Part shown: positions 25,721-47,189 of the stretch, piece by piece
How positions within the stretch are numbered: the first letter of the stretch is position 1
Layout of the letters: the number at the start of each line of letters is the position of its first letter
Source: Thermomicrobiales bacterium
Lineage (GTDB): Bacteria; Chloroflexota; Chloroflexia; Thermomicrobiales; UBA6265
Assembly (NCBI GenBank): GCA_019637585.1
Contig: JAHBVL010000018.1
Location: 1 to 48,917 of the forward strand
Length of the DNA stretch: 48,917 nt
Direction of reading: 5' to 3'
Translations under genes and position numbers: made by a program
Notes under the pieces: generated by a model
The model's input: the letters and a program-made list of their open reading frames with translations, nothing else
Databases searched by the model: none
Told to the model about the DNA's origin: nothing

Positions 25721-25972
25721 CGCGTCTATGGTCCTGGACGAGGTCGGGAATTCAGTGGTTGAGACCGGGAAACGCTCGTTCTGGAGAACGTTCGCCGGGC
25801 AATCGGTCAATTGTGCACGCCAGCGCCCGATTTTTCCATAAGAGGATCGCTGTGTTGCTTGATTCGGCAAACGGTTGCCGGTTCGTGTAGCCTTCGATGC
25901 GTGTCTCGACCGCATGAGCGGCAGAGGGCAGCGACAGGATCGCTTCTTTGCGTACGTACAGTGACTTTTTCG

Positions 25973-27073
25973 ATGAATGAGCAGGGGGATCGACGATTCT
26001 GGTCGGTCGTTCCGGCAGGCGGATCGGGTACGCGGCTCTGGCCGTTGAGTCGGGCAGGCCGTCCCAAATATCTCCTGCCGATCGCCGGTGAGCGATCGCT
26101 CCTTCAGCAGACGTGGGACCGCCTGCTCCCTCTTTCCTCGCCTGACCGGATATTGGTGGTCGCCGGCGCGGCGCACGCTGCCGCTATCGCCAGGCAGCTG
26201 CCCGACCTGCCCGAGGAGAACATCCTCATCGAACCGCAACCACGCGGCACCGGACCGGCGATCGGACTGGCGGCCGGAATCATTGCCTCCCGGGATCCTG
26301 CAGCCATCATGGGGAGCTTCGCCGCCGACCATGTCGTCACCGACACACGAGCCTTCACCCAAGCTGTGGAAACGGCGATCGCCGCGGCATCACAGGGTTG
26401 GCTGGTGACGATCGGTATTCAGCCGTCGCGACCGGAAACGGGGTATGGCTACATCGAGCGGACCGACGAGGTGCTCGAACTCGGTGCCGCCGTGCCAGGA
26501 GTCGCCTACCGGGCTGCGGGATTCAGGGAGAAACCGTCGTACGAAGCGGCCGTCGAGTTCATTCGCTCCGGTCGATACGACTGGAACGCCAGCATGTTCA
26601 TCTGGAGTGTCGAGACGTTTGCCACCGAGATGCGGCGATATCTGCCGGTTCACGCCAACCGGATCGCCAGGATCGTGTCGGCCTGGAACGAACCGGAGCG
26701 GGACGAAACGCTGGCCCGGGAATGGAATGCGATGAAACCGGTGACCATCGATGAGGGACTGATGGAACGAAGCGACCGTCTGGCGGTCGTGCCGGCCGAG
26801 ATGGGATGGTCGGATGTCGGGGACTGGCATGGTCTTGGCGCGCTGATTTCCGACCGGGAGGATGGCAACGCGTTTCGGGGCAATGTGCTCGCTCACGCGA
26901 CTCGCGACACCCTGGTCTGGTCGACCTCAGGGCGGCTCGTGGCGCTGGTGGGTGTGGGCGATCTGGCGGTCATCGATACACCCGACGCGCTCCTCGTGGT
27001 CAACAGACACCGGGCGCAGGAAGTGCGCTCCATCGTAGACAAGCTGGCGGGAGGGATGGATGACCTCATCTGA
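25973..27073 (+). CDS. manC: Mannose-1-phosphate guanylyltransferase
   Basis: 366-aa nucleotidyltransferase making GDP-mannose from mannose-1-P and GTP. The signature VPAGGSGTRLWPLSR with RPKYLLP (K32) is present, then FAADHVV, TGYGYIER, GFREKPSYE, NASMFIW and GWSDVGDWHGL. It lacks the C-terminal phosphomannose isomerase domain of bifunctional ManC/AlgA proteins; a separate manA is at 38349-39323. ATG 25973 was chosen from homology; the frame opens at 25811. A ribosome site is not obvious. It overlaps the next gene by 14 nt. Confidence 0.92.
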   Translation: MNEQGDRRFWSVVPAGGSGTRLWPLSRAGRPKYLLPIAGERSLLQQTWDRLLPLSSPDRILVVAGAAHAAAIARQLPDLPEENILIEPQPRGTGPAIGLAAGIIASRDPAAIMGSFAADHVVTDTRAFTQAVETAIAAASQGWLVTIGIQPSRPETGYGYIERTDEVLELGAAVPGVAYRAAGFREKPSYEAAVEFIRSGRYDWNASMFIWSVETFATEMRRYLPVHANRIARIVSAWNEPERDETLAREWNAMKPVTIDEGLMERSDRLAVVPAEMGWSDVGDWHGLGALISDREDGNAFRGNVLAHATRDTLVWSTSGRLVALVGVGDLAVIDTPDALLVVNRHRAQEVRSIVDKLAGGMDDLI

Positions 27074-29564
27074 TGGTGTTGTCGCCGGTTCAGGCGTCGG
27101 TCACATCCCGATCGGGCTGCCGGAGATCGAAGCCGCTCACCGGTTGCTCACTGGCAAAGCGGAGTTTCTGCCCGGCCGGACGACGCAATTCGCGCTCCGC
27201 ACACCACTGGTTCTCTCCGAACCGCTCACCCAGCAACTGGGATGCCGGGTCTGGTTGAAGCTGGAAAATCTGCAGCGCACCGGTTCGTACAAAGTGCGCG
27301 GTGCATTCAACAATGTGGCTCAGCTTCCTCCCGAACAGCGGGCGAAGGGTCTGGTGACCGCTTCGGCAGGCAACCATGCGCAGGGCGTGGCCGCCGCCGC
27401 GGCGGTGTTTGGCATCGCCGCGCAGACGTCGGTGTTCGTGCCGGTCGGCACGCCGAAAGTCAAGCAGGAAAACACCCGGGCTTTCGGCGTCGACGTGCGG
27501 GAAGTTGGCGACACCTTCGATCAGGCTCGCCAGGCGGCGTATCAGGAGGCTGAGAGGTCGGGGCGAGCTTTCATCGAACCATTCGACGCCTGGAACACGA
27601 TTGCCGGCCAGGGCACGGTTGGACTGGAAATCGCCGCTGACCTGCCGAGCTGCCGGGGCATCGTCGCGCCGATTGGAGGTGGCGGGCTCATCTCGGGTAT
27701 CGCGCTGGCCTTCAGGGATCTGCTGCCAGGAACCGAAGTGATCGGCGCCCAGGCGACCGGCGCCGCGGCCATGATCGCTTCGCTGGAATCGGGAGCGCCA
27801 ACCGATCTCGCCTTTCCGCCGACCACCCAGATTGCCGACGGCATCAAGGTGAGCCGGCCCGGCGATCGCCCCTTTGTCGTGGTGCAGTCGCTCATCGGCG
27901 CCGACCGGATCGTCGCCGTTCCCGATTTCGAAACCGTGGCCGCGGCGGCCGACCTGATGGTCTACGCCAAGGTCATTGCCGAAGGGGCCGGAGCGATCAG
28001 TCTGGCTGCATTGCGAGAAATCCAGATGGGGCGGTTCGCCCAGCATGCGCCATTTGCCGCAGACGACGATGTGGTGGTGATCGTCAGTGGGGGCAACATC
28101 GATCCGAGTTTCTCCTGGCGGATTCTCTATGAGCAGACGGTGCCCAACCTGATGACGGTTCGCGTGGCGATGCCAGACCGGCCCGGCGAATTGCTCAGGA
28201 TGCTGCTGCCGATCGCCAAGCAGAATGTGAACATCATCGACGTTGACGTCAATCGCCTCGATTCGAGACCACGAATCGGCGAACGCATCGTCGAGCTCTG
28301 CGTGGCCGTCGCCCATCAAGCGCAGGCTGATTCGCTGATAGCCTCGCTGAGCGATGCCGGATACCGGGTGCTCGTCAGCCGCTGGCAGGATCCGGCAGTC
28401 GACTCCAGGGGAAACACAACCCCCTCTGCCTATCTGGAAGCGCGCTCTACCCCCCAGGCGCCACCGGATTCCCCGCCTCAGTCGATACAGGAGCAGGTGT
28501 CGGCTCAGGGCGTGGACCTCCGGATCGAGAAGTTCGTGCTGACCGATCAGCGCGGCAAACCTCGATTCGCCAACACGTTTCTCCCCGGCGAGGAGATCTA
28601 CGTCGAGCTCGAGCTGCGAAATGCGGGCAGGAAGACGAGTCCATCTGGTCTGGCGACGGCGGTGTTCAGCCACATCGAAGCAGAAGGATCGGACAAGGAT
28701 GCCTTGAGCAGTCCCGACCTGCTGATTCTTCACCACGAGTTCCAGCCGAGGAGAGTCCCGTTTCGCTATGGTTCCTGGCCGGAAGGGCCGAAGTCTGGAA
28801 GGTTCGAACGCGGCTTTCGTTCGTTCTCGCAACAGGAACCCGGCCGGTACCGGGCCGTGGCGATGATCGATCCACTCGACAGGCTTGGTTTGCCATTGAC
28901 CTGGCGAGAAGCGGTTGTGGAGTATGCGATCGACTCCACCCTTCCCGATCCCACCGCGCACGATTTCGAGGATCCCCAGCAGGGGCCGGTTCTTGTGGTC
29001 AACAAGAAGTACCCGCTGCCGCGCGACTACACCCCCGCCGACCTTCGCGATCCGGCGGTGTTCACCAGGGTGATCGGTCCCCTGCGTGAACCCGCAGCCG
29101 TCGCGCTGGAAACGATGATGAGAAGGGCAGAAGAGGACGGCATCTCCCTCTGCCTCGTTTCTGGTTTCCGTTCGTGGGAACGGCAGCGGACGCTCTACGA
29201 AGAGGCCGTCGGCATCCGGGGGATCGAACGAGTCGAGCGCTTCATCGCCCGGCCAGGACATAGCGAGCATCAGGCGGGTCTGGCTGTCGATCTGGGAGTC
29301 AGAGACCGCCCCGAACTGGATACAGTGGCGGCATTCGCGGAATCCGCCGAGAGCGCATGGCTGAACCGCCACGCGCATGAGTTTGGTTTTCATCTGAGAT
29401 ACCCGAGCGCCAAGGAAGCGGTAACGGGTTTCTCCGGGGAGCCCTGGCACTACCGGTTTGTCGGGCGGCGCCTTGCCCTGATTCTCAAATCCCGCAACCT
29501 GACGCTCGAGGAGTACCTTGGCGTCGAGGGTGGCGACTACCGTTCCGATCCCGTTCAGGAGTGA
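27060..29564 (+). CDS. ilvA: Threonine ammonia-lyase-ACT-VanY-type D,D-carboxypeptidase fusion
   Basis: 834-aa uninterrupted frame joining enzymes normally encoded apart. Residues 1-360 are a PLP fold II threonine dehydratase: K78 (GSYKVRG), SAGNHAQGVA, the phosphate loop IGGGGL (about 205-210) and VSGGNID. Residues 365-445 are an ACT-like regulatory domain (MTVRVAMPDRPGELLRM). A Pro/Ser/Gln-rich linker (about 450-480) leads to a beta-rich domain (485-640) with LPGEEIYVELELRNAG. Residues 646-834 are a VanY/DacB-like zinc peptidase: SGFRSWERQ (701), H737 in HSEHQAGLAVD, D744, and GEPWHYRF with E794 and H797. All active-site residues of both enzymes look intact. No signal peptide or membrane segment precedes the peptidase. 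It is either a genuine fusion or an assembly/deletion join of two genes. Confidence 0.85.
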   Translation: MTSSDGVVAGSGVGHIPIGLPEIEAAHRLLTGKAEFLPGRTTQFALRTPLVLSEPLTQQLGCRVWLKLENLQRTGSYKVRGAFNNVAQLPPEQRAKGLVTASAGNHAQGVAAAAAVFGIAAQTSVFVPVGTPKVKQENTRAFGVDVREVGDTFDQARQAAYQEAERSGRAFIEPFDAWNTIAGQGTVGLEIAADLPSCRGIVAPIGGGGLISGIALAFRDLLPGTEVIGAQATGAAAMIASLESGAPTDLAFPPTTQIADGIKVSRPGDRPFVVVQSLIGADRIVAVPDFETVAAAADLMVYAKVIAEGAGAISLAALREIQMGRFAQHAPFAADDDVVVIVSGGNIDPSFSWRILYEQTVPNLMTVRVAMPDRPGELLRMLLPIAKQNVNIIDVDVNRLDSRPRIGERIVELCVAVAHQAQADSLIASLSDAGYRVLVSRWQDPAVDSRGNTTPSAYLEARSTPQAPPDSPPQSIQEQVSAQGVDLRIEKFVLTDQRGKPRFANTFLPGEEIYVELELRNAGRKTSPSGLATAVFSHIEAEGSDKDALSSPDLLILHHEFQPRRVPFRYGSWPEGPKSGRFERGFRSFSQQEPGRYRAVAMIDPLDRLGLPLTWREAVVEYAIDSTLPDPTAHDFEDPQQGPVLVVNKKYPLPRDYTPADLRDPAVFTRVIGPLREPAAVALETMMRRAEEDGISLCLVSGFRSWERQRTLYEEAVGIRGIERVERFIARPGHSEHQAGLAVDLGVRDRPELDTVAAFAESAESAWLNRHAHEFGFHLRYPSAKEAVTGFSGEPWHYRFVGRRLALILKSRNLTLEEYLGVEGGDYRSDPVQE

Positions 29565-29571
29565 AGCTGCG

Positions 29572-29772
29572 ATGAATACACCAGACGGACCGGACAATCC
29601 GGGAGCTGATGATCCCCTGGCCGAGCCATTCGCTCTGCGCGACGTCAGCGAGCGCCTGCCCAACGAGTCGTTGCGGTCGGAGTTGGAGACGATGTCCGAC
29701 GACGAGCGTGAAGCCTATCTCCGGCACCTGGAAGAGCTGTCAAAGCAATACCTGGGTCCGGGCGGACCGTAG
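29572..29772 (+). CDS. Small acidic hypothetical protein
   Basis: 66 aa, strongly acidic, with a proline/aspartate-rich N-terminus (TPDGPDNPGADDPLAEP) and a helical C-terminal half (ESLRSELETMSDDEREAYLRHLEELSKQYLG). AGGAG sits 10 nt upstream of ATG 29572 and the gene lies 7 nt after the fusion gene, so it is in the same transcript. I do not recognise a family. The helix might mediate a protein contact. The next gene converges 3 nt away. Confidence 0.6.
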   Translation: MNTPDGPDNPGADDPLAEPFALRDVSERLPNESLRSELETMSDDEREAYLRHLEELSKQYLGPGGP

Positions 29773-29775
29773 CGC

Positions 29776-30801
29776 TTACCCGACGACAACGCCCCAGACA
29801 GCGGCTTCCGCGACCAGACTCTCCCAGATCGGATCGGCCACCTCGATGCCGTCCCGCTCCCGGCGGGCGCGCTCAGCGATTTCCGGTTCTCCCGGCAGCA
29901 GCACCTCGCTGATTCCTTCCGCGGGCATGGCTGCGTGAACCGCGTCCACCTGGTCCTCGACCGCGCCGAGAAAGTCGGTCAATGGCCGCAGGCGCTCCGG
30001 GTCGATGGCGATGATCACCGGGCCATTGCCTCCCCCATGACCTGCCAGTTGCTCGGGTGTTTGTCCCGCCAGACCACGGCCCATCAACTGGGCGAAAAGA
30101 CTCATCCCCGACCCCTTATGCGCGCCAAACGCCATCAGTGCGCCGCCGTTGTAGAAATCGTTCGGGTCGTCTGAAGGCAGCCCGTCGGCATTCACCACGG
30201 CGCCAGGAGGGGCTGGCAGCCCTTTCGCTCTGGCCACCCGCAGTTTTCCTTCAGCGATGAACGCGGTGGCCACATCGAGCGTCACCGGCTCATGACCGTC
30301 CGCGCGCGGCACCGACCAGGCGAACGGGTTGGTTCCCATCACCCGGCTCCTGGCGCCGAAGGGAGCGACCGCCGCGCCGGCATTGGCCATTGCGATGCCG
30401 ACCATCTTCGCCGCAGCCACCTGCTCGACGTAGGGCGCCACGCGCCCGATGTGGTAGCACCGCTCGACCGTGGCCAGGCCGAGACCGAACTCGCGCGCCA
30501 GTCTGATCGCTTCGGTCGTGGCCAGGTGCATGGCCGGTTGACCCCATCCCCACCGGCCGTCGATGAGGATCGTCGCGCCAGACTCGTTGACGACCTCGGC
30601 CCGTGCGACCGGGTCGAGGGCTCCCGAACGAACCTGCGCCAGATAGGCGAGGATACGAATGACGCCATGCGAGTCATGACCGGTCAGGTTGGCATCGACC
30701 AGCGAAGCGCCAACGAACGCCGCCAGATCGGACGGTGTGCCGGACGCTTGCAGCATTTGTGTCATCAGTACGCGGAGTTGATCGGGGGTTCGTCGCGTCA
30801 T
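29776..30801 (-). CDS. Malate/L-lactate dehydrogenase family (Ldh2) oxidoreductase
   Basis: 341-aa NAD(P)-dependent 2-hydroxyacid dehydrogenase of the non-Rossmann Ldh2/YlbC/ComC family. Landmarks are TGHDSHGVIR (catalytic His), the NAD loop MANAGAAVAPFGARSRVMGTNPFAW, LDVATAF, and GAHKGSGMSLFAQLM. Members oxidise malate, sulfolactate, ureidoglycolate or 2,3-diketogulonate. The start ATG 30801 has GAGGA 5 nt upstream; the frame is open to 30846. It is divergent from the cupin gene. Confidence 0.9.
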   Translation of the reverse strand: MTRRTPDQLRVLMTQMLQASGTPSDLAAFVGASLVDANLTGHDSHGVIRILAYLAQVRSGALDPVARAEVVNESGATILIDGRWGWGQPAMHLATTEAIRLAREFGLGLATVERCYHIGRVAPYVEQVAAAKMVGIAMANAGAAVAPFGARSRVMGTNPFAWSVPRADGHEPVTLDVATAFIAEGKLRVARAKGLPAPPGAVVNADGLPSDDPNDFYNGGALMAFGAHKGSGMSLFAQLMGRGLAGQTPEQLAGHGGGNGPVIIAIDPERLRPLTDFLGAVEDQVDAVHAAMPAEGISEVLLPGEPEIAERARRERDGIEVADPIWESLVAEAAVWGVVVG

Positions 30802-30901
30802 CGCTTCCTCTGCTGATCGAATTTCGGATTCGGCGCTGCTTGGCACATTATCTGCGATATCGGCTCGTCACCTGAGTTCGATCCATCGAGGAGGTGGAAT
30901 C

Positions 30902-31486: not shown

Positions 31487-32875
31487 TCATTCCTGTACCG
31501 ATAGGTTGCCGGGGAACTGCGGGCCGAATCCGATCGCGTCTTCGATCCTGCGGCCGGCGGAGAGAAGTGCTTCGTCCTTGTTTGGGCGACCCGCGATCTG
31601 CAATCCGACGGGCAATCCGAGGTCGTCGAATCCGCACGGGATGGAGAGGGCCGGTTGGCCAGTCGCGTTGAAGGGCATCGTGAACCGGGTGTACGCCATG
31701 CCGACATGCTCTCTCGACCCGTCGTCATAGACAACGCGGACATCGTCAGCCGGCGCGGCTGTGCCAGGTGAGGCCGGCGTGATCATCGCGTCGAGCTCAT
31801 GCTCGTCGAACACGCGAGCACAGCTTCTGGCGATGATGCCGCGAGCCTGGTGCGCTTTGACATAGGCATAGGCGGGCACCAGCGTCGAGGACTCGATACG
31901 CAGTCGAAGCTCTTCCCCATAGCCATCCCACTGTTCCGCGAGATCGCCGATGTGGACACCCACCGTCTCGACGCGATTGATGATGAAACTTGCGGCGCGA
32001 GCCGCGCTGGCTTCGGCCCACGGCGTTTCGATGACCTCGATACCGGCCTGGCCAAGTGACTCGATTGCCAGCGCCATGGCGCTGGCGACTCCCGGCTGCA
32101 GACGGTCGAAGAAATGAGGACGAGGAATGCCGACCCGCAGTGGAGCGGAGCGAGGCGCCGGTTTCGATCGGCCCTCCCCCGTCTGCATGACGCGATACAT
32201 CAGCGTGGCATCGTCGACAGTCCGCGTCAGCGGGCCGACGGTGTCCAGCGACCAGGAGAGAGGAAACACGCCCCCGGTGCTCAGCGCCCCGAATGTCGGT
32301 TTGAATCCCACCACGCCACACATTGCCGCAGGAATGCGAATGCTGCCTCCGGTATCGGACCCCAGCCCGGCAAGTGACGAGCCGGCGACAATCGATGCAG
32401 CCGTGCCTCCCGACGATCCGCCCGGGATGCGGTCCGGGTTCCATGGATTGCGGGCCGGATCGCTGACGACTCCGGCGGCGAACTCCTGGGTGACTGTTTT
32501 TCCCAGAAGGATGGCGCCCGAATCCCGCAGCTGACGCACCACGACCGCGTCTTCGGTCGCGGCCGGCGCCTCCTGACGCGACCTGGAGCCACACCGCGTC
32601 GGCAGCCCGCGGACATCGAAGATGTCCTTGACGCCGACGGGAATGCCGTGCAATGGACCACGTGTTTCCCCCTTGACCAGATCGTTGTCGCACGAACGAG
32701 CCGCTTCCCCGGCCTGTTCCGCGTCGATCAGCACCCAGGCATGAACGGATGGCTCGGTCTCAGCGGCACGTTCGAGAACGGAATCAAGGAGCTCGACCGA
32801 CGACAATGCCCGCGATCGCAACAACGATGCCGCTTCCAGGATAGTCAATTGCCAGGGGTGGGAAGGACCGTTCAT
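31487..32875 (-). CDS. Amidase signature-family enzyme (1)
   Basis: 462-aa GatA/AtzE-type amidase. The Ser-cisSer-Lys triad is visible as K83 (GVKDIFD), S154/S155 in PGGSSGG, and nucleophile S178 in GSDTGGSIR. The C-terminus has the family FNATGQPALSIPCGFDDLGLPVGLQ. I chose ATG 32875, which overlaps the preceding TGA (TGATG) and has GGAGG just upstream, over GTG 32878. It is paralogous to the amidase at 33146-34531. It cleaves an amide or ester; specificity is not predictable. Confidence 0.9.
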   Translation of the reverse strand: MNGPSHPWQLTILEAASLLRSRALSSVELLDSVLERAAETEPSVHAWVLIDAEQAGEAARSCDNDLVKGETRGPLHGIPVGVKDIFDVRGLPTRCGSRSRQEAPAATEDAVVVRQLRDSGAILLGKTVTQEFAAGVVSDPARNPWNPDRIPGGSSGGTAASIVAGSSLAGLGSDTGGSIRIPAAMCGVVGFKPTFGALSTGGVFPLSWSLDTVGPLTRTVDDATLMYRVMQTGEGRSKPAPRSAPLRVGIPRPHFFDRLQPGVASAMALAIESLGQAGIEVIETPWAEASAARAASFIINRVETVGVHIGDLAEQWDGYGEELRLRIESSTLVPAYAYVKAHQARGIIARSCARVFDEHELDAMITPASPGTAAPADDVRVVYDDGSREHVGMAYTRFTMPFNATGQPALSIPCGFDDLGLPVGLQIAGRPNKDEALLSAGRRIEDAIGFGPQFPGNLSVQE

Positions 32876-33081
32876 CACACCTCCCAGGAGGGATCGAAGG
32901 ACATGCGAGGCGGCTCTGTGCCCAGACCGAGCGCTTCGATCTCTTCGAGAAACTCATTGATGATCTCGATCCGGGCGAGCGCTTCCGGGAACCTGTCAGG
33001 AGGGATCACATACTCGGCATCGACCGGCAAGCTTCCCGCCTCGGTATTCGAAACGTGGGGAATGATCCTGGATCCGCTCAT
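32875..33081 (-). CDS. Small protein between the two amidases
   Basis: 68 aa with the helical stretch PPDRFPEALARIEIINEFLEEI. It overlaps the amidase start by one base (TGATG), which implies stoichiometric coupled translation. Small helical partners such as GatC, AtzG or AtzH accompany several amidase-signature enzymes, so a structural subunit role is a reasonable guess, but I cannot show homology. GGGAAAG upstream of ATG 33081 is a weak ribosome site. Confidence 0.6.
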   Translation of the reverse strand: MSGSRIIPHVSNTEAGSLPVDAEYVIPPDRFPEALARIEIINEFLEEIEALGLGTEPPRMSFDPSWEV

Positions 33082-33145
33082 TGTTCACTTTCCCAGTGGT
33101 TTCTGATGTATGCGGTCATTGTCGCAGATGCACAACAGGTCGACG

Positions 33146-34531
33146 TCAATCAAAAGCTGGAAAACCGAGCTGGAATTGCAGGGATTCTTCGATGAGCCGG
33201 CCAAGCGCGAGCAAAGCGGCGTCATGGCTCTGTCTGCCAACAACCTGCAGCCCAATCGGCAAGCCGTCGTCATCGACACCGCAGGGGATCGAGAGCGCGG
33301 GCTGACCCGTCACATTGAACGGCATCGCGAATCGCGTGTAGGCGAAGGCAACGTGCTCTGTGCTTCCATCGGCGTGGTGTACCTCCTCCTGACCGCAAGG
33401 GATGGCAGTCGCCGGAGTGGCCGGTGTGACGAGCGCGTCGAGGTGGAGCTCGTCGAATGTCCGATCGATGTCTGTGGCAATCTGCTGCATCAGCTGGCGA
33501 GCGCCCAGATAGGTCGCTGAGGAGACCCTTCGACCCTCCTCGATCGTGCCGCGAAGTCCATCGCTGTAGCCATCGGGATCGGACGCCACCATGGCGCTGT
33601 GCAGTGCCGCCGCTTCCACCACGAAGATGGTGTAGTTGCTCATCCGGGTTCGCCAGGCGGCGGGCCAGTCCATCTTGATGAGCTCGAAACCGCTATCGCG
33701 CAACCGATCGAGCGATGCTTCGACAGAACGCGCCACAGCAGGCTGGAGTCGCTCGAAGAAGTAGGAACGCGGCACGCCCAGACGCCGCTTCCGGCCATTG
33801 TTCGCCGTGAGCGGGACGCCAGATGCGCGTTGCATCGCGCCGAAGAGCAGCGTCGCGTCCTGTACCGACCGTGCCAGCGGACCGAGCGTATCCAGCGTCC
33901 ACGAAAGTGGAAAAACTCCGGTGATATCCACCCGCCCCAGTGTCGGTTTGAATCCGACGGCGCCGCAGATCGATGCAGGGATGCGGATGCTGCCGCCGGT
34001 ATCAGATCCAAGCGAACCGGTCGCTGATCCAACGGCGACCGCTGCCGCGCTGCCGCCCGACGATCCTCCCGGTACCCGCGAGGTGTCCCATGGGTTTCGC
34101 GCCGGTGCGCTGGTCACGCCTGCCGCGAACTCATGGGTGACCGTTTTACCAAGGAGGACGGCTCCGGCATCTCGCAAGCTGGTGATCACCGCCGCATCTG
34201 ACATCGCCGGGCCGGCCCTCTCGCGAAGTCTGGCTCCGCACCGCGTGGGCAGCCCCGCAACATCGACCAGGTCTTTGATGCCGATCGGGATGCCATGGAG
34301 CGGCCCGAGTGTGCTTCCCCGGGCCAGCGCGTCATCGCATGCCCGAGCCGTTTCCAGCGCCCGATCGCTATCGACGGCAACCCATGCCTGCACGAGGTCA
34401 TCAGTCGACTGCATCCGCTCGAGAACCGAAGCCGTCAGCTCGACAGACGACAGCGCTCCGGCGCGCAACCTCGATGACGCCTCCACAATCGACATTTGCC
34501 ACGGATCCGTTGAGTGGGAGCGATCTGTCAC
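33146..34531 (-). CDS. Amidase signature-family enzyme (2)
   Basis: 461-aa amidase closely paralogous to the adjacent one. The triad is K86 (GIKDLVD), S157/S158 (PGGSSGG) and S181 (GSDTGGSIR); the C-terminus is FNVTGQPALSIPCGVDDDGLPIGLQ. Divergence is concentrated in the middle third (about 240-370), the part that shapes the substrate pocket, so the two copies may differ in specificity. It sits between the M42 peptidase and the 68-aa protein on one strand. Confidence 0.9.
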   Translation of the reverse strand: MTDRSHSTDPWQMSIVEASSRLRAGALSSVELTASVLERMQSTDDLVQAWVAVDSDRALETARACDDALARGSTLGPLHGIPIGIKDLVDVAGLPTRCGARLRERAGPAMSDAAVITSLRDAGAVLLGKTVTHEFAAGVTSAPARNPWDTSRVPGGSSGGSAAAVAVGSATGSLGSDTGGSIRIPASICGAVGFKPTLGRVDITGVFPLSWTLDTLGPLARSVQDATLLFGAMQRASGVPLTANNGRKRRLGVPRSYFFERLQPAVARSVEASLDRLRDSGFELIKMDWPAAWRTRMSNYTIFVVEAAALHSAMVASDPDGYSDGLRGTIEEGRRVSSATYLGARQLMQQIATDIDRTFDELHLDALVTPATPATAIPCGQEEVHHADGSTEHVAFAYTRFAMPFNVTGQPALSIPCGVDDDGLPIGLQVVGRQSHDAALLALGRLIEESLQFQLGFPAFD

Positions 34532-34603
34532 TGAAGATCCATGTTTCGGTGCACGACTGTCTCGTAGATACTGGCGGGTTTGGAAGCGGTCCGGTGCATT
34601 CGG

Positions 34604-35671
34604 TCAGCTCGGGGCATGGACGACGAATGCCTCCAGCAGGTCGACCGTGGCTTCGATGTCCCGCTCGTCCACCATCTCGATGGGCGAGTGGGTGTAGCGC
34701 GTCGGATAGGTCACGAGCGCGATCTCAGTGCCGCGTTTGAGCAGCGCCGAGGCATCGCTTCCATAGCTCTGATAGATCGCTCGCTGAACCGGAATCCCGG
34801 CGTCCCTGGCGATGCCGATGAGTCGTTCGCTGAGTTTCCAGGAATAGTGGGCCGAACTGTCGTGGTAGACCACGGCTGGTCCGGCGCCCATCACATTGGG
34901 AAAATCCCGCTTGTCGGTGCCTGGGATGTCGCCGACCAGCCCCACATCGAGATTGATGCAGAGATCGACCTCGATTTCATCGGCGATACTGGCGGCGCCG
35001 TGCAGCCCTGCTTCCTCCTGAACGGTCGAGACGAGCCAGAGCTCGTAGGGCAAGTCGCCCCGTTTGGCCAGACGCTCCGCGGCGAGCGTGACGATGGCCA
35101 GCGCGGCCCGATCGTCCATCGCCTTGCCGGAGATTCGGTGCTCTCCGAACCGTCGCGTCTTGGGGTTCCAGATGATCCGGCACCCGGCGTGAATGCCTAA
35201 CGCTTCGACCTCCTCCCGCGAGGACGCGCCGATGTCGATGAACCAGTCGTTCCATTCCCACCCGCTGGCGTTTCGCTCTTTGGCGCTCACGACGTGCCCG
35301 CTGGCAGTGGCGAACACGCCGTCGACGGTTCCACTGGGCGTCACGATCAGGGCGGACTGATTGAGCGGCATGACCCACTTGGGCGGCGCGCCACGGGTGT
35401 CGCCGTAATATGGCCAGATATGGATGAATCCATCGTCGCTCACGCTCTTGACCATGAAACAGATCTCATCCGCGTGGGCCATCAGCGCCAGTCTCGGCCC
35501 GGAGCCGCCGACCTTCGCCAGGACGTTGTCGACCCGCGTCCGCCGAACCTCCGCGAACGCGGACCAGCGCGCTTCGATCCAGTCCTGGACTGGTCCTTCC
35601 ATGCCGATTGGACCGGGAAGCTCGGTGAGCTCCCTGATGATGTCGAAGACACTGGATTTGCTGGTGCTCAC
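34604..35671 (-). CDS. M42-family metallo-aminopeptidase
   Basis: 355-aa peptidase of the glutamyl aminopeptidase/deblocking (M42, FrvX-like) family. The di-metal site residues are H66 and D68 (MAHADEICFM), D186/D187 (KAMDDRAAL), E219 and E220 (TVQEEAGLHGA) and a C-terminal His in YTHSPIEM. It forms large tetrahedral complexes in other species and trims short peptides. The start is GTG 35671 with AAAGGGA upstream. It is first gene of the block with the two amidases, which points to peptide or amide turnover. Confidence 0.9.
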   Translation of the reverse strand: MSTSKSSVFDIIRELTELPGPIGMEGPVQDWIEARWSAFAEVRRTRVDNVLAKVGGSGPRLALMAHADEICFMVKSVSDDGFIHIWPYYGDTRGAPPKWVMPLNQSALIVTPSGTVDGVFATASGHVVSAKERNASGWEWNDWFIDIGASSREEVEALGIHAGCRIIWNPKTRRFGEHRISGKAMDDRAALAIVTLAAERLAKRGDLPYELWLVSTVQEEAGLHGAASIADEIEVDLCINLDVGLVGDIPGTDKRDFPNVMGAGPAVVYHDSSAHYSWKLSERLIGIARDAGIPVQRAIYQSYGSDASALLKRGTEIALVTYPTRYTHSPIEMVDERDIEATVDLLEAFVVHAPS

Positions 35672-41096: not shown

Positions 41097-43655
41097 CTAC
41101 TGGGCGGTCGCTGTCCGCAGTTCCAGATCGGGTCGCTGGGGCGAGCGGGGACCGCTCGACGTCGGCGCGCCGCTGCGGCCCCGAAAACCGCGCAATCGCA
41201 GTGAGTTGGTCACCACGCTGACGCTGGAGAGCGCCATGGCGCCCGCCGCCAACCCTGGATTGAGCAGGTGACCGGTGAAGGGATAGAGCACACCCATGGC
41301 CACTGGAATGAGCACGACGTTGTAGGCAAACGCCCAGAAGAGATTCTGGCGAATCGTTCGCATCGTCTGCCGGGAGAGATCGAGCGCGTTGCCGACCCCG
41401 CGCAGATCGCCGCCAACCAGAGTGATATCGCTGGCCTCTTTCGCCACATCGGCTCCCGTGCCGATAGCGATGCCCAGATCGGCGGTGGCCAGCGCTGGAG
41501 CGTCGTTGATGCCGTCGCCAACCATGGCTACGATGCGGCCTTCGGACTGAAGGCGCTCGACGACTCCCGCTTTCTCAGACGGCAGCACCTCGGCGATGAC
41601 CCGATCCTCCGGCAGACCCACTTGCGCAGCCACGGCCACGGCGGTGGCCCGGTTGTCGCCGGTCAGCATCCAGACATCCCGCCCCTGGGCGCGAAGCTGG
41701 CCAATTGCCTCGACCGAATCGGGTTTGAGAGTGTCGGCAACGGCGATGATTCCTGCCACATTGCCGTCAATGCCCACATACATCGGCGTCTGGCCGAGCG
41801 ACGCCAGTTCGGCGCCACGCGCGCTCGGCGAGTCTGCCTCGATTCCGGATTCCGCCAGGAACGCTCGCGTACCGATGACGATCTGCTTCTCTTCGACGAC
41901 GGCGGAGACACCCTTGCCGGGAGTTGCGCGGAATCCTGTGGCGCTTTCGATCGTCAGACCCTGCTCTCTCGCCGCCCGGACGATCGCCGCACCGAGCGGA
42001 TGCTCAGAACCGATCTCGGTGGACGCGGCCAACCGGAGCAGCAAAGATTCGTCGAAGCGACCGTCCGGCACGACGGCCACGACCGCGGGTTTGCCCTGGG
42101 TGACCGTGCCCGTTTTGTCCAGAACGACCGTATCGATCTTGTGTGCTTGTTCGAGAGCGGCGCCACCCTTGATCAGGATGCCCATTTCCGCGCCCCGCCC
42201 GGTTCCCACCATCACCGCGGTTGGCGTGGCCAGACCCATGGCGCAGGGGCAGGCGATGATCAGGACGGCGATGGCCGCCTGGAGCGCGTTGCGAAATTCC
42301 GGAGCCGGACCGACCAGATACCAGACGGCAAAGGTCAGCGCGCTCAGCACCAGCACGATGGGTACGAAGTAGGACGAGATCGTGTCGGCCAGACGCTGAA
42401 TCGGCGCTTTCGATCCCTGTGCGTCTCCGACCAGCTTGATGATTTGGGCGAGCGCCGTGTCCTTGCCGACTCTGGTGGCCCGGAAGGTCAGCGTGCCGGT
42501 CGTGTTCACGGTGGCTCCGATGACCTCGTCGCCACTTTCCTTCTCCACAGGCAGGCTCTCGCCAGTGAGCATGCTCTCGTCGACCGCCGACTGACCGGAC
42601 AGAACGACGCCGTCTGTGGCGATTCGCTCCCCGGGCCGCACCCGGACGAGATCGCCGACCGCTACCGCGGCGAGCGGTATCTCGACTTCATCGTCGTTTC
42701 TGATCACCCTGGCGGTCGCCGGGGCCAGATCCATCAGGGCGGTGATCGCCGATGAGGTGCGCAACCGCGCCCGCGCTTCGAGCCAGCGTCCAACCAGGAT
42801 CAATCCGATGATGACTGTCGCGGTTTCGTAGTAGACCTCTGGCATGTCGTGATGATCGACCAGCCGCTCCGGGAAAAAAGTCACCGCCGTCGAATAGAGA
42901 TAGGCGGCCGATGTGCCGATGGCCACCAGGGTGTTCATGTTCATCTGGCCGTGACGGCCTGCGGCAAAGGCGAGTCTGTAAAACTGCCATCCGGCCCACA
43001 CCTGGATGGGCGTCGCCAGCGCAAACATGAGGTAGTTCATCGACTGCATCGAGTCGAACGGCTGTCCGCCGAAGAACCAGTCCGGCCAGTACATCAGGAA
43101 CATGAGCAAAGCGGAAACCGCCAGCGCCGCGACGGCTTTGATCTTCAGGTTCCGCAGCTCAGCGAGCCGCCGGTCGGTCAACGAATCGTCTTCGGATTCC
43201 GCTGTCTCGCCCGACTCCCGAATGGCGTAGCCAGCCCGGACGACGGCTGATTCGAGCGCGGAGCGATCAAGCGAACCAGCGTGTCCCTGAATCGTGGCGG
43301 TTTCGGTTGCCAGGTTCACGGAGACGCTCTGTACGCCCTCGACTTTCTCAAGGGCTTTCTCCACCCGCCGAACGCAGCTGGCGCAGGTCATGCCGTCGAC
43401 CGGCAACGTGACGGTGGTGGTTGGAACGCTGTATCCGGCGGATTCGATGGTGGCAACCAGATCGGCCGCGTTCACGACACCGGGATCGAAATCGATCGTT
43501 GCCTCTTCCGTCGCCAGATTGACCGCGACCGATTTCACCCCATCCTTCTTCTCCAGCGATCGTTCGACCCGGCGGACGCAGCTGGCGCAGGTCATACCGC
43601 CGATCGGCAGGCGGATTTCGTGTTCAGTGGGGGGTGTTTGTGTTTCTATGCTCAT
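41097..43655 (-). CDS. copA: Copper-exporting P1B-type ATPase
   Basis: 852-aa Cu(I) pump. Two N-terminal heavy-metal-associated domains each have GMTCASC (C23/C26 and C91/C94), followed by eight membrane segments. TGES (364-367) is the actuator loop, CPC (469-471) the transmembrane metal site, DKTGT with phosphorylated D513, the nucleotide-domain HP dipeptide in GSEHPLG, and [10 protein letters not shown]. The CPC and MxxSS-like C-terminal helices fit subgroup 1B-1 (Cu+/Ag+). It exports copper from the cytosol. The upstream operator is CsoR-like, so induction by copper is expected. No chaperone or csoR gene is adjacent. Confidence 0.96.
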
Positions 43656-45502: not shown

Positions 45503-45713
45503 GACCCGTCACCTGCGTGCGATTCTCTGCACAAGGAGCGGCGCCAATCCCCTCCGCCCACACTCCTGATTATCGTAGGAAGACGCCTCGCGCGCCTCGA
45601 TGCCGGTACTCCCGTCGCCGCAACGCCAGAATTGGTCTCCCAGGGAAAACACATCTGATGGCGTCGTGGTATCGTCAAACGCGAACCGTCGCCAACAGCA
45701 GGGAGGGATCTCG

Positions 45714-47189
45714 ATGTCGGAGGAAGAAAAGGGGAAAACCGCCGAACCAGCAGCCGCCGGGATGGAGGCGCCGCCTCCGCCAGTCAAGGGAACCGGCAGT
45801 TTCGCGGCAGAGGCTCTCTCGCTGGAATGGGAAACCGAGTTCGGTTTCATGCCGATCGAAAACGCCAAGGGCGAGATCGAGGCGACGCTGTCGTACACCT
45901 ACTACAAGCGATCGAACGACGGCGGCAACCGGCCGCTGACCATCCTGTTCAATGGCGGGCCGGGGTCGGCATCGATCTGGCTTCATATGGGAGGTATTGG
46001 TCCGCGGCGCGTTCGGTTGCACGACGACGGCGCCATGCCCCCTCCCCCATTCGAGGTCATCGACAATCCCCACACCTGGCTGACCTTCAGCGATCTGGTG
46101 TTCGTCGATCCGGTCGACACCGGATACAGCCGGGCGTCGAGCGAGGAAACGGGCAAACGGTTCAAGTCGGTCGATGGCGATCTGGAGTTGAACAGCGAGT
46201 TCATCCGCCGCTTCATCTCCCGCTACAACCGCTGGTCCTCCCCGCTCTTCCTGTCGGGTGAGAGCTACGGCACATTCCGGTCCGCCGGTCTGGCGGGCAA
46301 ACTCTCCGACCGCGGCGTCATTTTCAATGGCATTATGTTGATCTCCAGTGTCCTCGAACTGGGCACCCTCCTCTTCGAATCGGGAGACGATCTGCCCTAC
46401 GTGGTGTATGTACCCACCTACGCCGCCACCGCCTGGTATCACGGCGCGCTGGAACCAGACCTGCAGGCGATGCCTGTGGAGAGCCTCCTCCGGGAGGTTC
46501 GCGAGTGGGCGCTGACCCGATTCACGGTGGCGCTGGCCAGCGGTCATGACCTGCCTGACGGCGAGCGAAAAGCGGTTGCCGCGGAACTGGCCCGATACAC
46601 GGGTATCGATGCGATGCTGCTCGAACGCTGGAATCTGCGGATGAGCGGCGAGCGATTCTGCAACGAGCTCCTGCGAACGGATGGCAAGGTCGTCGGCAGG
46701 CTCGATTCCCGTTTCACCGGGTTCGATCCCAACAATCGGACCGACGACACGGAGTTCGATCCGAGTATGAGCGCCATCCGGGCGCCGTTCACCGCGGCCT
46801 TCAATGCGTATGTCCGCAATGAGCTCGGGCATGAGACCGAAGCCGAGTATCACGTGCTGCGGAATCTCGACTGGACGTGGGGCAGCGCCGCGGAAGGCAC
46901 GCCGCGCACCAACGCGTTATTGGAGAAAGCGTTCTCCGAGAACCCCTATCTGCACCTGATGGTGCTGTCGGGCTACTACGATCTGGCGACGCCATTCTTC
47001 GCGACCGAATACACCCTTGGACGCTTGCGCATCGATCCGGCCCTACGTGACCAGATCGTGCCAGCCTACTATGCGGGCGGGCACATGATGTATGTCGCTG
47101 AGGAGATCCTGGCGGCGATGCAGAAGGATGTCGCGGCGTTCGTTGAGCGGGCGCTGGCCGCCCCGCAACAGGTGTTGCGGGGCAGCTGA
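45714..47189 (+). CDS. Serine carboxypeptidase-like (S10) peptidase
   Basis: 491-aa alpha/beta-hydrolase peptidase. The oxyanion sequence is FNGGPGSAS (80-86), the nucleophile S184 is in SGESYGTFR, the acid is D423 in GYYDLATPF and the base H457 in YAGGHMMY. Typical eukaryotic S10 enzymes are secreted, but this one begins with a charged, Pro-rich tail (MSEEEKGKTAEPAAAG...APPPPV) and no signal peptide, so it is probably cytosolic. ATG 45714 follows GGGAGGG by 6 nt; the frame opens at 45600. The 3' end encodes a perfect hairpin CCCCGCAACA-GG-TGTTGCGGGG (47161-47182) just before the stop. Confidence 0.87.
   Translation: MSEEEKGKTAEPAAAGMEAPPPPVKGTGSFAAEALSLEWETEFGFMPIENAKGEIEATLSYTYYKRSNDGGNRPLTILFNGGPGSASIWLHMGGIGPRRVRLHDDGAMPPPPFEVIDNPHTWLTFSDLVFVDPVDTGYSRASSEETGKRFKSVDGDLELNSEFIRRFISRYNRWSSPLFLSGESYGTFRSAGLAGKLSDRGVIFNGIMLISSVLELGTLLFESGDDLPYVVYVPTYAATAWYHGALEPDLQAMPVESLLREVREWALTRFTVALASGHDLPDGERKAVAAELARYTGIDAMLLERWNLRMSGERFCNELLRTDGKVVGRLDSRFTGFDPNNRTDDTEFDPSMSAIRAPFTAAFNAYVRNELGHETEAEYHVLRNLDWTWGSAAEGTPRTNALLEKAFSENPYLHLMVLSGYYDLATPFFATEYTLGRLRIDPALRDQIVPAYYAGGHMMYVAEEILAAMQKDVAAFVERALAAPQQVLRGS

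Follow-up and report, generated by a model that had tools for sequence, protein, structure and literature searches.

The window analysed here is the whole stretch of 48,917 nt (positions 1-48,917) of contig JAHBVL010000018.1 from Thermomicrobiales bacterium (GCA_019637585.1), and its plus strand carries a single open frame of 834 codons (27060-29564), beginning with an ATG, in which domain matches identify an ilvA::vanY fusion gene. The encoded protein begins with a PLP-dependent threonine/serine dehydratase that ends in an ACT-like tail (residues 1-470); a short Pro-rich linker then leads to an all-beta domain, and an LdcB/VanY zinc carboxypeptidase closes the chain. One uninterrupted frame with exactly these limits had been reported in an earlier note on this DNA, and our analysis agrees with it. 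Because two strong family matches share one frame, chance is excluded as the source of the fusion call. The coding signal keeps the same frame across the junction and has its minimum over the Pro-rich linker. The two halves of the gene have a third-position GC of 0.75 and 0.73, versus 0.77 in the neighbouring genes, and the codon score of the peptidase half is 0.14 versus 0.24 for the dehydratase half. An antisense open frame of 857 codons (27090-29663, minus strand) spans the entire fusion gene; since it scores lower for coding than the sense frame over nearly its whole length, it is most probably a by-product of GC-rich codon usage.

The dehydratase half belongs to the IlvA-TdcB group of fold-type II PLP enzymes. 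Its PALP domain occupies residues 43-344 (27186-28091, plus strand; Pfam PF00291, E 8e-71), and the PLP lysine K78 (27291-27293), the GGGGL loop (206-210) and the SGG motif (343-345) are all kept in a stand-alone ortholog of 64% identity. The best NCBIfam model, matching residues 48-438, is TIGR01127, threonine ammonia-lyase with one C-terminal ACT domain, whose members share with the fusion the full PALP domain, the PLP lysine, the glycine loop and probably a C-terminal ACT-like region. The fusion differs from them in about 365 added residues and in a score of 327 bits, beneath the curated equivalog cut-off of 378.75, so that the dehydratase family is clear and the exact substrate, threonine, is putative. 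In the ACT-like regulatory region (residues 366-445, 28155-28394), the PF01842 match is weak (residues 366-410, 17.4 bits for a Pfam cut-off of 27). The earlier description of this half as an intact PLP dehydratase with K78, the GGGGL loop and an ACT-like domain is right, the exact substrate being a refinement. The dehydratase should work normally, as the extension after the ACT region leaves the catalytic domain intact.

The end of the IlvA tail and the Pro-rich linker lie at 28395-28499, where the stop codon of the relative aligns near codons 470-480, which is as finely as the tail end can be located. The all-beta domain that follows (about residues 480-640, 28497-28979) shows strands in a low-confidence model; it gave no sequence match in Pfam or the PDB and no convincing match in structure comparison. 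In a peptidase relative from the viral collection (L095), a lipoprotein-like signal is followed by a region of beta-strand type and then by a VanY domain, which resembles the fusion minus IlvA in the order of its parts.

The peptidase domain (M15B type, residues 645-821, 28992-29522) matches Pfam PF02557 at residues 675-802 with 128.9 bits, for a cut-off of 25 (E 1e-37). By sequence, the closest solved structures are Bacillus LdcB 4mph and 4ox3 (E about 1e-42 to 1e-40), with VanXY and VanY-B ranking behind them. Single-sequence structure prediction was unusable (pLDDT 35), and a model was built from six sequences, in which the VanY domain is confident (pLDDT 70-86 in most blocks) and the beta domain poor. 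When this model was compared using Foldseek and VIA-align, the predicted VanY domain grouped with LdcB, at a Z of about 20 over 170-188 residues, with 37-44% identity and an rmsd of 2.3-3.1, and the VanY-B and VanXY structures scored lower (Z 15-18). The NCBIfam cut-offs were missed both for the LdcB exception model (123 vs 275 bits) and for vanXY (121 vs 250 bits). Judged from these sequence and model comparisons, the putative peptidase is nearer to LdcB, an LD-carboxypeptidase of the kind that shortens tetrapeptides to tripeptides, than to VanY proper.

For S. pneumoniae LdcB, PMC4087270 names the zinc ligands H153, D160 and H207 together with E204, R120, Q125, S151, Y191 and Y201. In a mapping read from the alignment, the three ligands correspond to H737 (29268-29270), D744 (29289-29291) and H797 (29448-29450) of the fusion, the catalytic E204 to E794 (29439-29441), R120 to R704, Q125 to Q709, S151 to S735 and Y191 to Y781, and the sole change among these residues is Y201 to F791. 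The zinc triad H-x6-D...H and the catalytic Glu are complete, and the intact VanY-like metal site seen earlier is thereby confirmed. The LdcB/DacB enzymes (B. subtilis YodJ, B. anthracis and S. pneumoniae LdcB; PDB 4ox3, 4mph, 4ox5) share with the peptidase half the fold, the zinc ligands and the active-site Glu, Arg, Gln and Ser, whereas the peptidase described here is fused to another enzyme, has no export signal and carries Phe at the Tyr201 position. The D,D-dipeptidase/D,D-carboxypeptidase VanXY has, according to the model comparison, the same fold and metal site, but its sequence similarity is lower, it is a stand-alone protein, and no van cluster genes are found among the fusion neighbours examined. 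A bisubstrate selectivity loop, beta4-alpha5, is given as a VanXY feature in PMC4087270. VanXY acts on UDP-MurNAc-pentapeptide and D-Ala-D-Ala (PMC9866002), and it therefore provides a precedent for a family member acting on precursors.

How did a dehydratase come to carry a peptidase at its end? Upstream, a manC-like mannose-1-phosphate guanylyltransferase gene (25811-27073, plus strand) overlaps the fusion start by 14 bases. Downstream, an ORF of 66 aa, orf66 (29572-29772, plus strand), starts 7 bases after the fusion, and a gene of the malate/L-lactate dehydrogenase family (ldh, 29776-30846, minus strand) ends the conserved block. The closest IlvA, the 64%-identical protein mentioned above, is a stand-alone protein of 461 aa in G002, the nearest relative, which belongs to a different genus of the same family. 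The gene order of G002 (GGT, manC, ilvA, orf66, ldh, amidase) is the order of the window with the fusion in the place of ilvA; the overlap with manC is arranged in the same way, orf66 shows 62% identity over 52 residues, and the start codon of orf66 overlaps the ilvA stop. In other words, the segment of about 1.1 kb that encodes the beta and VanY domains is placed in frame precisely between two genes that touch in G002, with both neighbours intact. The synteny and the in-frame placement at the gene border lead us to infer that the segment was inserted at the 3' end of ilvA. The reverse polarity, a loss of the segment in G002, would be less likely because a comparable VanY half is absent from all other genomes of the order (61) and of the class (158). 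With regard to the flanking genes, orf66 and ldh are separated in G002 by an aldolase-like ORF (L042, 4336-5289) that is missing at that spot in the window, and orf66, whose C-terminal part is conserved (EREAYL..LEEL.K.YLGPGGP), is present only in these two genomes among 32 of the family.

The fusion is known from one genome only. The few VanY matches found within the class are short and weak and belong to another subgroup, and none of the related VanY proteins in a draw of 400 genomes of the phylum is joined to IlvA. The same fusion was found in no phage, plasmid or viral contig, where the nearest phage and plasmid relatives have about 40% identity over the VanY domain only and none reaches 80% query coverage. 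A scan of genome contigs returned as sole match a VanY-type protein of Demequina, which carries its own membrane segment. The earlier note had proposed searching related genomes for the same domain order; the class holds no second fusion, and the nearest relative has a stand-alone ilvA, with no vanY at that place. The best reading of these sequence comparisons is that the fusion would be lineage-specific and its peptidase LdcB-like and acquired. A search of the literature gave no relevant publication on such a fusion or on both protein names together, and the protein joins two families that are each well known in a way that is unusual and seen in a single lineage. As a separate observation, one locus (L107, G474 C125:7881-8282) has a weak VanY-type match within an open frame of 863 codons, possibly another multidomain protein.

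LdcB/VanY peptidases are usually exported by means of a signal peptide, a lipobox or a membrane anchor, VanXY being the exception. A strict hydropathy rule finds an uncharged hydrophobic segment ahead of the domain in 28 of 35 related VanY frames, and weaker signals can be made out by eye in the remaining ones, for instance a start that resembles a twin-arginine signal or a lipobox; in many of these relatives a Pro/Thr/Ser-rich linker comes after the signal. In the fusion protein, by comparison, hydrophobic segments are absent from the N-terminus and from residues 440-640. A frameshift concealing a signal peptide was rejected, since the other two frames upstream of the VanY half offer neither a signal nor a hydrophobic candidate. 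Relative to the inspected proteins, the peptidase half thus seems to have lost its export signal, and the fusion protein is presumably cytosolic, which upholds the proposal of a cytosolic dehydratase fused to a normally exported peptidase. A cytosolic role for the peptidase half goes against the rule, because the inspected relatives all appear to act outside the membrane.

We consider it reasonably probable that this is a real, lineage-specific fusion producing a cytosolic two-enzyme protein, whose peptidase probably trims wall peptides ending in D-amino acids. A coupled operon manC-ilvA-orf66 would be the ancestral state, into which about 1.1 kb encoding the beta domain and an LdcB-type peptidase, devoid of export signal, would have been inserted in frame just where ilvA terminates, so that the ilvA stop was lost. 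Both activities and the peptidase substrate are read from sequence: the dehydratase half would deaminate threonine/serine, and the tethered zinc carboxypeptidase would probably act in the cytosol, where it would trim muropeptides from recycling or UDP-MurNAc peptides. The genome encodes several Mur ligases and a Ddl clustered on one contig (C29), and hence makes peptidoglycan precursors. The LD-carboxypeptidase that usually serves in the cytosol, LdcA (S66), is missing from this genome, as it is from most of its family. Given these precursors, the missing LdcA and the VanXY precedent, cytosolic trimming is possible, and to this extent the suggestion of muropeptide recycling survives. Its other part, a feed into deamination, does not: an LdcB-type enzyme would release D-Ala, which is not known to be a substrate of this class of PLP dehydratases, and the neighbours manC, orf66 and ldh give no context of wall recycling, so that nothing supports a link from the peptidase to the deamination of amino acids. 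A more specific proposal, that fusion to a housekeeping PLP enzyme recruited a cytosolic LdcB-type LD/DD-carboxypeptidase that would stand in for the missing LdcA in the trimming of recycled wall peptides, or would edit precursors of the wall, the ACT-bearing IlvA serving as its regulated scaffold, we regard as rather doubtful.

The presence of the fusion in a single genome, the export signal that is gone although relatives have one and the lower codon adaptation of the peptidase half, which fits a recent import, maybe a decaying one, would also be expected if the fusion were real and its peptidase half a cytosolic passenger of no useful activity, tolerated at the end of IlvA and decaying. This reading fits almost as well as wall-peptide trimming, but about 350 stop-free codons and the retention of all zinc, catalytic and ligand residues except for the Tyr-to-Phe change speak against decay, and we hold it to be on the unlikely side. 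That a foreign or distant fragment was attached to the end of ilvA during assembly is very improbable: there is one assembly only, in 33 contigs, but both flanks are collinear with G002, the composition matches, and a misassembly would have to insert a complete domain pair in frame, at exact gene borders, leaving the neighbours intact. A misassembly driven by repeats was rejected, 28300-28700 having no second copy in the genome, and so was a deletion joining ilvA to a neighbouring vanY, as orf66 comes straight after ilvA in G002, with no vanY there; the assembly or deletion join that the earlier note kept as its alternative is accordingly unlikely. The peptidase half might also be released as a separate protein, from an internal GTG start (28497 or 28512) or by cleavage of the Pro-rich linker, which is probably flexible. 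An AGGAG lies shortly upstream of 28497 but only 3 bases from that GTG, and the separate piece would still have no signal, which makes release hardly credible.

If both halves of the favoured two-enzyme protein work, an exported wall peptidase would, unusually, have become cytosolic by being joined to a metabolic enzyme, in a genome that has no LdcA, and the locus would exemplify how gene fusion can change the compartment of a protein. With an idle peptidase half, the locus would still cleanly document a recent in-frame insertion within a conserved operon. Elsewhere in the window, a pair of amidase-family genes on the same strand is found beside an M42 aminopeptidase-like gene (31490-35671, minus strand), followed by a P-type ATPase with two heavy-metal-binding domains (41100-43655, minus strand) and by a partial match (45600-47186, plus strand) to serine carboxypeptidase S10, whose family is more familiar from eukaryotes.
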